Below are positions 22,054 through 28,546 of a DNA stretch of 50,205 nt, piece by piece. Position 1 is the stretch's first letter. Every line of letters begins with the position of its first letter. This stretch comes from Citricoccus zhacaiensis. Its GTDB lineage: Bacteria > Actinomycetota > Actinomycetes > Actinomycetales > Micrococcaceae. A model generated the notes under the pieces. It did not search any database. It had not been told where the DNA came from and saw only the letters and a list, made by a program, of their open reading frames with translations. The stretch is taken from contig NZ_BMLQ01000009.1 of the NCBI RefSeq assembly GCF_014645315.1, forward strand, positions 72,716-122,920. The letters are read 5' to 3'. Position numbers and translations under genes: made by a program.

Positions 22054-22545
22054 CTACTGGGATGTGGGGCCGTGCTCTTCATGCCACTTCGCCTCGGCCT
22101 CGGCGCGTGAGGTGTTCTCACGGTCGATCTGCGCGCCCTTGACCACGGCGTACCACCAGGCCAGGCCGAAGCCCACGCCCACGATGGCCATGGTGTATTC
22201 GATGAAGGCGGACGCCACCAGGAGGATCTGGATGGTCCAGCCGATCCAGATACCGAGCGGCTTCCGGACCAGCGCGCACGTCAGGATTGCCACCACCGCC
22301 AGGCCCAGGGACAGGCCCAGCGCCCAGGGCGCCATCGGCTCCCCCCGGTTGACGCCGTAGACAGCCATGCCGAAGAAGGCCAGTACGAAGGCCTCCATGA
22401 CCAGGACGGTGGAGGTGAAGGTCGCCCGGATGGAGCGGACCTTCTTGACCTGCCCCGGCTTCCACTCCCGCTGGGACTTGGTCTCCCGTGCCGGTCGCCA
22501 GGACTCGTGCCCGGTCGTCGTCTCGGCCGAGTTGTCCGAACTCAT
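22054..22545 (-). CDS. DUF4233 membrane protein
   Basis: A 163-residue integral membrane protein matching the DUF4233 family, commonly found beside folC in Actinobacteria. About four hydrophobic segments are visible (TFTSTVLVMEAFVLAFFGMA, WALGLSLGLAVVAILTCALV, LGIWIGWTIQILLVASAFI, AIVGVGFGLAWWYAVV) between charged ends. The ATG overlaps the folC stop by 4 nt (ATGA). The function is unknown. Confidence 0.9.
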   Translation of the reverse strand: MSSDNSAETTTGHESWRPARETKSQREWKPGQVKKVRSIRATFTSTVLVMEAFVLAFFGMAVYGVNRGEPMAPWALGLSLGLAVVAILTCALVRKPLGIWIGWTIQILLVASAFIEYTMAIVGVGFGLAWWYAVVKGAQIDRENTSRAEAEAKWHEEHGPTSQ

Positions 22546-24230
22546 GCGTTGTTCCCTCCGTCTGCCCTGGATCCCCGGGAACCTTGCGCCCGTGGGGCCC
22601 CGCCATCGACATCGACATCATGATCGGATTCGTCGAAGATGTCGTCGAAGTCCTCCTCGTCCTCGTCGAGGCCGTCACCCAGCTCCAGGCCGAAGTCGTT
22701 GAACACGTCCACGGCGGTGGGCACGGCCACCGCCTCCGGGGTTCCGGACCCCGGCGCACCCGCCGAGGGTGCACCGAGGAGCTCACGGGCCTCGGCCACC
22801 AGGGTGATGGATCCGGTGATCAGCACGCCGCCCCCCAGGCCGGCCTCCCCGGCAGTGGTGGCCTCGGCACGTCCCACCGCCCATTCGATGGCGTCCGGAA
22901 CGGACTCCGTGGCGAAGAGATCCTCCTCCGGCCAGCCGGCGTCCAGTGCCGTCTGGGCCAGCTCGCCGGCCGGGATGGCACGCGGGGAATCGGACTGGGT
23001 CAGGCAGAGGTCCTCCACCAGGTCGCCGAACTCCCGGTACAGCTCCGTGAGCATGGACAGGGCGTCCTTCTCCTGGAGGATACCGACCACCAGCACGAGC
23101 TTCTCGAGCCCGAACGCCTCCTGCAGTGCCCCGGCGGTGGCCTTGATGCCGGCCGGGTTGTGGGCCGCATCCACCACGATCGTCGGGGCGTTGCGCACCA
23201 CCTCAAGCCGTCCGGGGGCGGTGACCTCGGCGATGCCCTGCTGCAGCAGGTCGAACTCCAGCGGCTTCTCGCCCCCGAAGAACGCCTCCAATGCGGCCAC
23301 GGCCAGGGCCAGGTTCTCGGCCTGGTGTCCGCCGTGCAGCGGCAGCGTGAGTTCGGGGTAGCGGCCCGCGATGCCCTGGACGGACACCTGTTGTCCGCCC
23401 ACGGCCACGGACCGGGACTCCACACCGAAGTCGACGCCGCCGAACCGGAATCCGGCGTCCACCGCACGGGCCACGTCGAGCAGCACCTGCGCGGCGTCCG
23501 GTTCCTGGGCGGCCGAGACGAGGAAGCCGCCCGGCTTGATGATCCCGGCCTTCTCCGCGGCGATCTCGGCCACGGTGTCCCCGAGCAGGTCGCTGTGGTC
23601 CAGGGAGATCGGGCTCACCACAGACACCGCCGCGTCGGCCACATTGGTGGCGTCCGTGATCCCGCCGAGGCCGACCTCGAGGACCACCACGTCCACCGGC
23701 TCATCCGCGAAGATGGCGAAGCCGAGCACGGTCACGGCCTCGAAGTAGGTCAGCCGGTTCTCCCCGGCCGCCTCCAACTCGGCGTCGACCACCTGGACCA
23801 CCGGCAGGATCTCGTTCCAGATCCGCACGAAGGTGCTGCCATCCACCGGAGCCCCGTCGATGCTGATGCGCTCGGTCACCGAGCTCAGGTGCGGCGAGGT
23901 GTACCGGCCGGTGCGCAGGCCGTAGGCCCGCAGCACCGACTCGATCATCCGCGCCGTGGAGGTCTTGCCGTTCGTCCCCGTCAGGTGGATGACCGGCGCC
24001 GCCCGCTGCGGTTCGCCGAGCAATTCCATCGCCCGGAACATCGGTTCCATGCGCGGTTCCATCTTGTTCTCCGGGGCCCGCGCGAGCAGGTCACGGTAGA
24101 CGGCCTCGACCGTCTCGGGCGCCGGGGATGTCTCAGACGGTCCGTCCGGCAACTGATGGTCCTCGTTCTGATTGCTCTTCTTGCTCTGGTTCTTGTTCTT
24201 GCTCTGGTTCTTGCGGTCCTTCATGCTCAC
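22542..24230 (-). CDS. folC: Folylpolyglutamate synthase / dihydrofolate synthase
   Basis: A 562-residue FolC of the Mur-ligase fold that adds glutamate to (dihydro)folate. The P-loop [14 protein letters not shown] is near residues 82-95, followed by [15 protein letters not shown]. The central domain has [14 protein letters not shown] and the C-terminal domain [10 protein letters not shown] and [10 protein letters not shown]. The family core is ~430-460 residues. This one carries a ~35-residue Lys/Asn/Gln-rich N-terminal extension and a ~60-residue acidic C-terminal tail. The GTG start overlaps the ileS stop by 4 nt (GTGA); an ATG two codons later is also possible. Confidence 0.93.
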
Positions 24231-27200
24231 GCGTCACTTCCGGTCGAGACGGAGGCGGCGGCCTTGGCCACGGCCACCTGCACGGTCTTGGTCGCATCGT
24301 CGGCGGGGTCCTGGCGCGGATCCGCGGCCCCGGAGTCCTCCAGCACCAGCTCCACCGTCAGGGTCTCCCCGGAGACGAGGTCACGGTGCACATCCACGGC
24401 CTGCACGACGGCGGCCGGTCCCGTGATCACGGTCCGCACCCGGTCCGAGACCTCCAGTCCGGCGTCCTTGCGGGCGGCCTGGACGGCCCGGATCACGTCG
24501 CGCGCCGTGCCCTCGGCGGCCATGTCCGCCGGAACCGAGGTGTCCAGCACCAGGAAGCCGCCGGGCACCACGGTGACCGCGCGCGATGCAGCCGCGGCGC
24601 CGGCGTCGGCCGCTCCGACGGTGGTCTCGAGGGAGTACTCTCCCTCGATGAGCGCGATGCCGCCCGAGACGACGGTCCCGTCCTCGGCCACGGACCAGTC
24701 ACCGGACTTGGCACCCTTGATGGCGACCTGGACCTGCTTGCCCAGGCGCGGGCCGGCAGCACGGGCGTTGACGGCCAGGGACTGGCTGATGCCGAAATCG
24801 GTGGCGGACACCTCGGCGGCGTCCTGCAGGTCCACGGACTTCAGGTTCAGCTCGTCCATGATGATGTCCGTGTAGGCGCCGGCCAGGCCGCCGGCATCCG
24901 GCACCACCACGGTCAGGGACTGCAACGGCAGCCGCACGCGGCGCTTGGCTCCCTTGCGCAACGAGGAGCCGGCCGAGGCGATGCGGCGGACGGTCTCCAT
25001 GCGTTCGACCAGGGCCTGCGCCTCCGCCTCCGAGGCGAAGCCGGCGAAGAACGGCGCGGCATCCGGGTAGTCGGTCAGGTGCACCGACCGGCCGCCGGTC
25101 AGTCCGCGCCAGATCTCCTCGGCCACCAGCGGCATCAACGGCGCCGCGGCCCGGCAGAAGGCCTCCAGGGACGTGTACAGCACGTCCAGCGCCTGGGTGT
25201 CCTCGTCGAAGAAGCGCTGGCGGGAGCGGCGGACGTACCAGTTGGTCATGGTGTCCATGTAGACGCGCAGGGCGTCGGTGGCGTCGGAGACCTCGTAGGA
25301 GTCGAGGCCGGCCTTGACCTCGCGGAGCATGCGCCCGGTGGCGGCCAGGATGTACTGGTCCAGCGGGTCCGTGGACTCATAGCGGAACGCGGCACGGTAG
25401 CCGTCCGGGCGCTCGGTGCCGTCCGCGGCCCGGCCGCGTGCCGAGTTCGCGTAGAGGCTGAAGAAGTGCCACACGTTCCAGGCCGGCAACAGGACCTGGC
25501 GGGTCGCCTCCCGGATGCCCTCCTCGGTGACCACCAGGTTCCCGCCGCGCAGGATGGGCGAGGCCATCAGGAACCAGCGCATGGCGTCGGAGCCGTCCCG
25601 GTCCAGGACCTCGGAGACGTCCGGGTAGTTCTTCAGGGATTTGGACATCTTCTGCCCGTCCGAGCCCAGGACGATCCCGTGGCTGATGACGTTGGAGAAC
25701 GCCGGGCGGTCGAACAGGGCGGTGGCCAGCACGTGCATGGTGTAGAACCAGCCGCGGGTCTGACCGATGTACTCCACGATGAAGTCGGCCGGATTGTGGG
25801 TCTCGAACCACTCCTTCGAGTCGAAGGGGTAGTGCACCTGGGCGTACGGCATGGAGCCCGAGTCGAACCAGACGTCCAGCACGTCCTCCACGCGGCGCAT
25901 CACGGCCCCGGCGGCGGCGGCCTCCGGGTCGGGGTGCGGCCGGGTCAGCTCGTCGATCCAGGGACGGTGCAGGTCCACCTCGCCCTGATCGTTGCGCGGC
26001 AACCGCCCGAAGGCCGCCTCGATCTCGGCCAGCGAGCCGTAGACCTCCTGGAGCGGATACTCCGGATGGTCCGACTCCCACACCGGGATGGGCGAGCCCC
26101 AGTAGCGGTTGCGGGAGATGGACCAGTCCCGGGCGTTCTCGAGCCACTTGCCGAACTGCCCGTGCTTGACGTTGGACGGGATCCAGTTGATGTCCTCGTT
26201 CAGCTCGACCATGCGGTCCTTGAACGCGGTGACGGAGACGTACCAGCTGGTGATGGCGCGGTAGATCAGCGGCGTCCGGCAGCGCCAGCAGTGCGGGTAG
26301 GAGTGCTCGTAGGAAGCCTCCCTGAACAGCTTCCCGGCCGCCTTCAGCGCCCGGATGATGGTCCGGTTGGCCTCGAAGGCCTGCACGCCGGCGATGTCCT
26401 GGAGCACGCCGCCGCCCCGGTTCACGTCCCCGAACAGGGGCAGGAAGCGCGCGCCCTCGTCCACGGAGAGGATCACCGGGATGCCGTGGGCCTCACAGAT
26501 CCGCTGGTCGTCCTCACCGTAGGCGGGGGCCTGGTGGACCACTCCGGTGCCGTCCTCGGTGGTGACGTAGTCGTCCACGAGGATCTGCCACGCGTGCTCG
26601 GTGCCATAGGTCTCCACATCCGTGAAGTACGTGAACAGCGGCTCGTAGGCCAGACCGCCCAGCCGGGAGCCCAGGTAGGTGCGCTGGACCGCCTCGGTGG
26701 CGGCGCCGGCGTCGGGATAGCCCAGCTCCTTGGCGTGCGCCCCCAGCAGTTCCTGCGCCAGGAGATACGAGGATCCGGCGATGTCCTCCGCCGCCTCCGG
26801 TCCGGCGGGGACCACAGCGTAGGTGATCTCCGGCCCGACGACGAGTGCCTGGTTGGTCGGCAGGGTCCAGGGGGTGGTGGTCCAGGCGAGCACGCGCACC
26901 CCGGTGAGCTGAGCCGCCAGCTCGGCGTCAGCGCCGCCGTCGGGCGTGGTCGCCGGGTCCGCGGCCAGGCCGGTGATCGGGAAGGCCACGGTGACCGAGG
27001 GATCCTGGCGGGACTTGTAGACGTCCTCGTCCATGCGCAGTTCGTGGTTGGACAGCGGGGTCTCGTCCTGCCAGCAGTAGGGCAGGACCCTGAAGCCGCG
27101 GTAGGTGAGGTCCTTGGAGTGCAGGTCCTTGAACGCCCAGAGCACGGACTCCATGAACTCGGGGTTCAGGGTCTTGTAGTCGTGCTCGAAGTCGACCCAG

Positions 27201-27679
27201 CGGGCCTGCCGGTTGACGTAGTCCTTCCACTGGTCCGTGTACTTGAGCACGGAGGCGCGGCAGGCGTCGTTGAACTTGTCGATCCCCATGGCTTCGATCT
27301 GGGCCTTGTCCGTCATGCCCAGCTGCTTCATGGCCTCGAGTTCGGCGGGCAGCCCGTGGGTGTCCCAGCCGAAGCGGCGCTCCACCCGGCGGCCCTGCTG
27401 CGTCTGGTAGCGGGCCACGAGGTCCTTGACGTAGCCGGTCAGCAGGTGGCCGTAGTGGGGCAGGCCGTTCGCGAAGGGCGGGCCGTCATAGAAGACGAAC
27501 TCGTTGCCGGAGCCGTCCTCGTGGGTGGCCGGCCGTGCGTCGATGGAGGCCTGGAAGGTGCCGTCCTCGTCCCAGTACTTCAGGACGCGCTCCTCGATCT
27601 CCGGGAAACGCGGGGAGGAGGGTGTGCCGGACTGGGCGTTCGGATCCGAGCTGGCGAGGGGGTACACGGGCGTTGCCAT
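24227..27679 (-). CDS. ileS: Isoleucyl-tRNA synthetase
   Basis: A 1150-residue class I synthetase that charges tRNA-Ile. The HIGH motif is HYGH at residues 75-78 ([13 protein letters not shown]) with WDTHGLPAE after it, and KMSKS is at 677-681. The CP1 editing domain lies between them. The [13 protein letters not shown] form marks the eukaryote-like type 2 enzymes often insensitive to mupirocin. ATG 27679 has AAGG directly upstream. A 12-bp leader helix ends exactly over this ATG, which supports the choice. A TTG 14 codons upstream is the alternative but lacks an SD. It is controlled by a T-box and followed by folC with a GTGA overlap. Confidence 0.95.
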
Positions 27680-27864
27680 CCTTGCAGGGGTCGACTGTGG
27701 TGCTGTCTGGTCTTCCTGCAAGGACGCCTGGCGTTGTCCTCGAGCTCCGGCGCGGAGATCAAGGACGACGGCGGCGCGGTACCACCCTGCTTGCCGTCCC
27801 GCTCCCCGGTGGTCCCGTGAGGCGAGATCGGCCGCTCATGACTGCTGTGACGGGCTTACCCGTC
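27677..27864 (-). promoter_or_regulatory. T-box riboswitch of ileS (translational type)
   Basis: The leader contains the canonical T-box sequence AGGGTGGTACCGCG at 27788-27775. It is framed by a GACGGC (27798-27793) / GCCGTC (27772-27767) helix, and TGGT is placed to pair with the ACCA end of uncharged tRNA. A short upstream hairpin (27840-27820) holds an ATC (27828-27826), the Ile specifier candidate. Further 5' is a 6-bp hairpin GACGGG/CCCGTC (27864-27849). Downstream, a strong hairpin (27766-27736) has no T run. A 12-bp helix pairs 27726-27715 with 27688-27677, covering the AAGG SD and the ATG. This indicates control of translation rather than termination, as known for actinobacterial ileS T-boxes. 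The 5' limit is approximate. Confidence 0.88.
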
Positions 27865-27958
27865 CGGGTCTACTGGGGCTGGCGCGTGCCGTGCCTGTTC
27901 TTCCGGAAGCTCGCCGGTGATGGCCGGGTCAGTGCTGTTGGTGCTGCTGGCGTTGATT

Positions 27959-28525
27959 CTACGCTCTTTTCTCGCTCATCTCGCCTGCGGCGCCTTTCCC
28001 GTCCTGCCCGCTCTTTCTCGGAGAATCGTCGAAGTAGTCGATCAGCGCGGTCCCCATCCCGGCGAGGACGGCGTAGGTGGCCCGCGGCCGCTTCGCACCC
28101 AGCCGGGCGATCAGATTCTCGGACCACTCGTCCGTGACCGAGGTCAGCCACATGGAACCGGCCATGAGCCCGCCGAAGAGGGCCCCCGTGACCACGGGGG
28201 CGCCGAGGCGCCGAGCCCGGGACACCTCCGCGCGGGGTTCGCCCTGCACCGCGGCCTCACGCTCGAACTGGTCCCGTTTCAGGATCAGACCACCGGTCAC
28301 CACCGCGGCAGCGATGCCGCCGGACCACAGGGCCAGGGGCTTGCGCGGGATCTTCCACAGGGGGAAGGCGGAGACGATCCCGGTGGCGGCACCCAGGCCG
28401 AGAGCCTTCCGGAGTCGTGGGATGTCCACACCGTGGTGGCCAGTGTCCGTGGTGCTCACCGCGCCGCTGTCCCTGCTGGCGTCCAGGCCCGCGGCGGTCG
28501 GCTGGTCTCGGTGCTGTCCTGCCAT
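27959..28525 (-). CDS. Hypothetical membrane protein
   Basis: A 188-residue protein of unknown family. After a ~35-residue hydrophilic N-terminus come hydrophobic segments at GAATGIVSAFPLW, LALWSGGIAAAVVTGGLIL, APVVTGALFGGLMAGSMWL and possibly TYAVLAGMGTALIDYF, then a charged tail ending in MSEKRA. ATG 28525 has a GAGGAA SD about 8 nt upstream; the GTG five codons earlier overlaps this SD. It lies between an SDR gene (21-nt gap) and the ileS T-box leader, all on the minus strand. Confidence 0.75.
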   Translation of the reverse strand: MAGQHRDQPTAAGLDASRDSGAVSTTDTGHHGVDIPRLRKALGLGAATGIVSAFPLWKIPRKPLALWSGGIAAAVVTGGLILKRDQFEREAAVQGEPRAEVSRARRLGAPVVTGALFGGLMAGSMWLTSVTDEWSENLIARLGAKRPRATYAVLAGMGTALIDYFDDSPRKSGQDGKGAAGEMSEKRA

Positions 28526-28546
28526 GCTGGAGTTCCTCACTTGGTC

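Follow-up and report, generated by a model that had tools for sequence, protein, structure and literature searches.

Results

The ileS locus and the comparison set

The window, the whole 50,205-nucleotide stretch of Citricoccus zhacaiensis contig NZ_BMLQ01000009.1 that was analysed, carries on its minus strand the gene ileS for isoleucine–tRNA ligase (24227–27667; TIGR00392, 788.7 bits against a cut-off of 621.4) and, downstream on the same strand, folC (22542–24230; TIGR01499, 332 bits against a cut-off of 162.65). The GTGA overlap between the ileS stop and the folC frame, which had been pointed out in an earlier note on this DNA, is located at 24230–24227 and holds if the first folC start is used; two candidate starts lie within 24230–24222, one being the GTG of the overlap, the other an ATG in the same frame two codons downstream. 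Immediately upstream of the ileS leader, an open reading frame of 193 amino acids (27959–28540, minus strand) matches nothing in NCBIfam at E ≤ 0.001. The plus strand holds a 1230-amino acid open frame (24128–27820) antisense to the whole of ileS, which is probably a shadow frame of high-GC coding DNA.

By the IleS N-terminus, the nearest named relative is Micrococcus terreus (89% identity), and seven congeners have IleS N-termini 88–99% identical to that of the window, congeners L113 and L114 reaching 99% and 98%, respectively, over the N-terminal 200 residues. The 87 rows compared consist of 79 of 80 named loci, L049 having been dropped because its contig ends inside ileS, and 8 genomes of the genus, i.e. 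the window and the seven congeners; with L002 and L116 having one and the same leader, no more than 85 rows are independent both of the window and of one another. For alignment, 30 diverse leaders were hand-picked among the 79 named loci, M. terreus excluded, all with IleS N-termini at most 84% identical to that of the window. The shuffle and swap statistics below ignore kinship among loci. One assembly, L027, is titled Sporosarcina beigongshangi and carries an Arthrobacter-like ileS (N-terminus 84% identical to that of the window) with an actinobacterial T-box; it is perhaps mislabelled or contaminated.

A T-box upstream of ileS

The exact T-box core seen earlier in the leader, AGGGTGGTACCGCG, is found at 27788–27775 on the minus strand and contains a UGGN bulge. 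The Rfam T-box model RF00230 matches the leader over its full model length at 27941–27758 (34 bits, E = 4.7e-6), and this is the sole match in the genome at E ≤ 10; the check with Rfam that had been suggested thus yields a match, but one that stays under the gathering score of 93 bits. Across 120 genomes of the family Micrococcaceae the gathering score is reached in none, with a match at E ≤ 0.1 in 68. With the score reached in none of the 120, scans that depend on it will miss the class in this family; the cut-off appears to be tuned to T-boxes with a long Stem I.

A class-matched covariance model, built on the alignment of the 30 ileS leaders from other genera, gives a strong match at 27931–27716 (131.4 bits, E = 2.2e-40, E-values of this model being rough by the tool's own account) and no second match in the genome at E ≤ 0.001 among the 150 of 7873 first-look candidates that were scored. 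The T-box core lies upstream of ileS in 79 of the 80 named loci, the contig of the remaining one stopping within ileS. As a detector by itself, the bare 12-letter core pattern was rejected and its matches were discarded: it occurs in 59 of 59 genomes, but so, in most of them, does a reversed control.

With Stem I, lower Stem II, helix IIA, A1 and A2 annotated on the 30-row alignment, 96.2% of structure cells pair, compared with 92.0% in shuffles, and 27 cells have changed on both sides, where shuffles give 6.1 and none of 500 reaches that number; of the 27, A1 accounts for 17 and lower Stem II for 10. Controls in which the structure was slid along the alignment pair in 36–50% of cells with 0–16 both-sided cells; a one-column slide in one direction retains 16 both-sided cells, yet just 47% of its cells pair. 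For Stem I the paired fraction is 81.7%, a shortfall due mainly to seven rows whose loop differs in length and which sit one column off.

Architecture of the leader

The leader carries an ultrashort Stem I, CCGG-CCAUCA-CCGG (27914–27927, minus strand), whose apical loop presents the specifier AUC at 27921–27919 followed by the purine A27918. This assignment comes from the 30-leader-model alignment and from relatives, and the Stem I pattern, searched as a regular expression, is recovered from 85 of 87 loci. The earlier note had proposed an ATC specifier without coordinates; if the ATC at 27828–27826 was meant, it does not stand, as these letters lie within Stem III and vary in relatives, whereas the conserved AUC falls outside the span then considered (27677–27864). 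The Rfam and 30-leader-model alignments both place Stem II at 27863–27907, with a lower helix UCCGG (27907–27903)/CCGGA (27867–27863) in which three of five pairs show both-sided changes among the 30 leaders, and with the S-turn letters GAA and AGUA inside. The Stem IIA/B region that follows, CGGGUAAGCCCGUCACAGC (27844–27862), is recognised by its conserved letters; its helix IIA, CGGG/CCCG, has no both-sided changes, and covariation therefore gives this helix no support. Stem III (27791–27837), drawn from the predicted fold, is flanked by GAGCG (27837–27833) and AA (27792–27791), in line with the RRRxG-Stem III-AA motif of PMC7583486.

The letters after Stem III would form the rest of the discriminator. 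The 5′ strand of the antisequestrator helix A1, GCAGGG (27785–27790), has its partner at 27723–27718, with both-sided changes in four of six pairs. Next come the T-box bulge UGGUACC (27778–27784), whose UGGU would base-pair with the 3′-terminal ACCA of the tRNA, and the 5′ strand of helix A2, GCGCC (27773–27777), which is matched by GGCGU (27728–27724) with a basal G-U. The basal A2 pair is G-U in 28 of the 30 relatives and G-C in two, and a basal G-U at this place is described as an aminoacylation sensor in PMC7583486. The 30-leader model places the 3′ strand of A1, CCUUGC, at 27718–27723, where it doubles as the core of the sequestering arm; GGCGTCCTTGCAG is the same in all eight leaders of the genus. 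The tRNA-Ile of this genome has the anticodon GAU and, as read from its acceptor stem, the discriminator base A, and it therefore fits both the AUC specifier and the UGGU bulge.

A putative promoter element lies just upstream. The −10-like hexamer TAGAAT (27956–27961, minus strand) overlaps the TAG stop of the 193-amino acid frame and sits 34 nt from Stem I, a distance found in 3 of 85 loci; in 75 of these 85 loci a TANN[ACT]T hexamer precedes Stem I by 24–26 nt, compared with 24 of 758 background windows that contain one. The count covers 85 of the 87 loci, the Stem I pattern being missing or too near the locus end in two. If TAGAAT is a promoter element, the RNA would start approximately 10–25 nt before Stem I.

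The ileS start codon

The start codon of ileS was assigned to GTG 27667–27665, which is common to all seven congeners. The earlier note had instead taken ATG 27679–27677 as the start and had it buried, together with the Shine-Dalgarno sequence, in a helix. In the window this ATG shares the ileS frame. L113 and L114 have one base fewer ahead of GTG 27667 than the window, which shifts the ATG out of frame, and the other five congeners lack it. An AAGGA lies 11 nt upstream of GTG 27667, while the spacing from AAGG to ATG 27679 is 0 nt. Many Arthrobacter-type leaders likewise have AGGATG before the chosen ATG, either in frame (as in L003) or out of frame (as in L011). Given the loss of frame, the zero spacing and the variable frame of AGGATG in relatives, the preferred reading of AAGGATG is an extended Shine-Dalgarno sequence.

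The sequestrator helix

The 12-base pair helix reported earlier is present as described: CGTCCTTGCAGG (27726–27715) pairs with CCTGCAAGGATG (27688–27677) through 12 pairs, one of them G-U. As features of the minus-strand leader, the sequestrator has the 5′ strand CGUCCUUGCAGG (27715–27726) and the 3′ strand CCUGCAAGGAUG (27677–27688), the latter holding the Shine-Dalgarno AAGGA at 27683–27679. Burial of the Shine-Dalgarno sequence is thus upheld and that of the start codon is not, for the helix stops 9 nt before GTG 27667. A 12-pair helix with this arm is reached by 2 of 2000 dinucleotide shuffles of the Shine-Dalgarno side, and any 12-pair hairpin with a loop of 3–60 by 1 of 200 shuffles of the leader. 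When the longest contiguous arm helix is compared across the 87 leaders (with the ileS start of L045 set by hand to a downstream ATG), it measures 12 pairs in five, namely the window, L113, L114 and two G-U-rich cases, and 5–8 pairs in 76; among the congeners the 12-pair form occurs, besides the window, only in two near-identical leaders.

That the arm and the Shine-Dalgarno region pair and co-vary in related genera, a check set by the earlier note, is borne out by a swap test on 33 distinct arms, in which arms combined with their own Shine-Dalgarno region give −15.6 kcal/mol and permuted combinations −13.4 kcal/mol (0 of 20000 permutations as low, kinship ignored). Such co-variation between species offers a simple comparative route to mapping sequestrators. 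The longest arm helix lies off any Shine-Dalgarno-like core in 19 of 87 loci, comprising one Sinomonas and 18 records whose titles name no Micrococcaceae genus, several being metagenome bins without assignment. A second helix of the OFF state, between the 3′ strand of Stem III and the A2 loop, is weakly indicated (own −12.2 against permuted −11.6 kcal/mol in 80 distinct loci; 212 of 10000 permutations as low).

The earlier claim that no terminator follows also holds in the region searched: between 27600 and 28100 there are two terminator-like sites, both on the plus strand, and no intrinsic terminator on the minus strand. The leader might instead act on transcription, through a terminator that escaped detection or depends on Rho, since termination is not always intrinsic. 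This is very unlikely in view of the minus strand lacking any intrinsic terminator-like site in that region, of the co-variation of the arm with the Shine-Dalgarno region across species, and of the proposal in PMC1262725 and PMC7583486 that actinobacterial ileS T-boxes are translational.

When the stretch between the core and a point shortly after the start is folded without tRNA, tertiary contacts or Stem III, the predicted gap between the ON and OFF forms of the window is 16.5 kcal/mol, the largest OFF bias of the 87 leaders (median 4.3 kcal/mol); in the same predictions the OFF form is favoured in 73 of 87 and the ON form is more stable or equal in 14. A gap at the top of this range would suit a decayed T-box, a constitutive leader that has kept a very stable sequestrator and lost the ability to switch. 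We consider decay extremely improbable, as the letters of the T-box are intact (131 bits) and A1/A2, the bulge, the specifier and a matching tRNA are all kept, and a leader locked in the OFF state would presumably damage an essential gene.

The strand that probably captures the arm

A1 pairs GCAGGG (27790–27785) with CCUUGC (27723–27718), a strand that is common to A1 and the sequestrator. Across the 87 loci, 515 of 522 A1 cells pair against a shuffle mean of 479 and maximum of 491, a count that is biased because the strand was chosen by complementarity. Choosing the strand by motif alone gives the same place in 81 of 87 loci, and 80 of 116 cells are then Watson-Crick over 29 distinct combinations (mean 56.6 and maximum 73 in 5000 shuffles).

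In the earlier note the arm was captured by a different strand, GAGGAC (27741–27736), pairing with GTCCTT to turn ileS on, and the sequestering helix was to hide the Shine-Dalgarno sequence together with ATG 27679. The complementarity of GAGGAC and GTCCTT is real, and with each helix forced in ensemble calculations that leave out tRNA and tertiary contacts the GAGGAC pairing (−115.5 kcal/mol) comes close to A1 with A2 (−115.9 kcal/mol), both lying above the OFF form (−124.2 kcal/mol). With forced energies so nearly equal, energy alone is indecisive, and conservation and covariation decide for A1: GAGGAC occurs only in the window, L113 and L114, five of the eight genus leaders being without it, whereas A1 is kept and covaries. 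GAGGAC is moreover locked in a local hairpin (predicted P of 0.99–1.0), and the forced rival keeps GCAGG/CCTGC paired next to the Shine-Dalgarno sequence. Together with the loss of ATG 27679 or of its frame in the congeners, all seven of which share the GTG, these observations make capture by GAGGAC highly improbable as the switch, and A1 is preferred as the helix that competes for the arm.

In the prediction for the free leader the sequestrator has a P of 0.999, while A1 and the GAGGAC rival each have a P of 0, the value for A1 arising because tRNA is absent from the model. Over the whole leader the OFF form is favoured by a predicted 8.3 kcal/mol without tRNA, which supports OFF as the resting state of the modelled leader. 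With this preference and no A1 in the absence of tRNA, switching would therefore rest on energy contributed by the tRNA.

An insertion on helix A2

Helix A2 of the window carries an inserted hairpin, GTCCTTGATCTCC / GGAGCTCGAGGAC (27736–27766, minus strand; predicted P of 0.99–1.0), which appears as an insertion in the 30-leader-model alignment. The spacing from the core to the A1 3′ strand is 63 in the window and 23 in M. terreus, the extra 40 nt corresponding to the hairpin at 27766–27736. The hairpin is absent from L116 and L002, and in L115 and L117–L119 the A2 loop is about as long but differs in its letters. Insertions in A2 are frequent in translational T-boxes according to PMC7583486.

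The insert contains CGUCCUUGA (27767–27759), which nearly repeats the A1 3′ strand region, sharing eight of nine letters with CGUCCUUGC (27726–27718), and is possibly a partial duplication. It could form five of the six A1 pairs plus GCG/CGU, and this near copy of the subclade might in principle be a decoy antisequestrator that lets tRNA-Ile dock without freeing the Shine-Dalgarno sequence. We regard such a decoy as improbable; if it were true, the decoy and the 12-base pair sequestrator together would make a T-box with a built-in brake and unusually low basal output. Among the congeners, the alternative A1 strand within the insert is missing from L116 and weaker in others, L114 and L117 among them. 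Over the 87 loci, the spacing from core to A1 correlates with the ON–OFF gap at a Spearman coefficient of −0.31, and bigger A2 loops bring no general increase in OFF bias. The long sequestrator and the arm-like letters of the A2 insert are lineage traits.

Discussion

Sequence comparison establishes class membership, the covariation of A1, the co-variation of the arm with the Shine-Dalgarno region, the start codon and the matching tRNA. The leader combines a conserved core with a UGGN bulge, an ultrashort Stem I with an apical-loop specifier followed by a purine, a Stem II with conserved S-turn letters and a covarying lower helix next to Stem IIA/B, a discriminator made of Stem III with its RRRxG and AA flanks, A1, and A2 with a basal G-U, a sequestrator that covers the Shine-Dalgarno sequence and excludes the antisequestrator with no terminator, and a cognate tRNA in the genome with the matching anticodon and discriminator base. 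We are therefore confident that the minus-strand ileS leader is very probably a class II ileS T-box riboswitch, translational and with an ultrashort Stem I, that has an A1/sequestrator switch. The earlier claim of a translational ileS T-box with an ultrashort Stem I, whose sequestering helix is lost when the arm is captured, is supported. The earlier observation is partly confirmed and its interpretation partly supported, and what emerges is an intact-looking ileS T-box in Micrococcaceae whose anatomy has been corrected in its start codon, specifier and competing helix.

In the proposed mechanism, Stem I would present its AUC to tRNA-Ile with the anticodon GAU, a contact that Stem II and Stem IIA/B would brace, and the discriminator (Stem III, A1, the UGGUACC bulge and A2) would probe the 3′ end of the tRNA. 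Uncharged tRNA-Ile(GAU) would stabilise A1/A2, with CCUUGC pairing to GCAGGG and the Shine-Dalgarno sequence left free. With charged tRNA, which would clash with the T-box, or with no tRNA, the CCUUGC strand, extended to 12 nt, would pair with CCUGCAAGGAUG and hide the Shine-Dalgarno sequence upstream of the GTG start. For tRNA binding, charge sensing and the effect on translation, this scheme is taken over by analogy from the published Nocardia and Mycobacterium homologues (PMC7583486, PMC10651847).

Translational ileS T-boxes that sequester the Shine-Dalgarno sequence were described in actinobacteria in 2005 (Seliverstov et al., PMC1262725), and Sherwood et al. 2015 is cited for them in PMC7583486 and PMC7778990. 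The TBDB class II covariance model covers translational T-boxes of actinobacteria, and sequestrator stems are stated there not to be currently predicted (PMC7778990). A literature search, with subscription journals and database entries outside its scope, found no T-box literature naming Arthrobacter or Micrococcus.

The leader shares with the actinobacterial ileS T-boxes of PMC1262725 the position upstream of ileS, the lack of a terminator, the hairpin that sequesters the Shine-Dalgarno sequence and the antisequestor alternative; compared by description, the 12-base pair sequestrator is a trait of the subclade of the window, and A2 is about 40 nt longer here than in M. terreus. With the ileS T-boxes of Nocardia farcinica and Mycobacterium tuberculosis (6UFM, 6UFG; PMC7583486, PMC10651847) it has in common the short Stem I with an apical-loop specifier followed by A and, again by description, the S-turn Stem II, Stem IIA/B and the Stem III-A1-A2 discriminator. 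The ileS leader of the window is thus a real and essentially known system, a further example of the actinobacterial ileS translational T-box.
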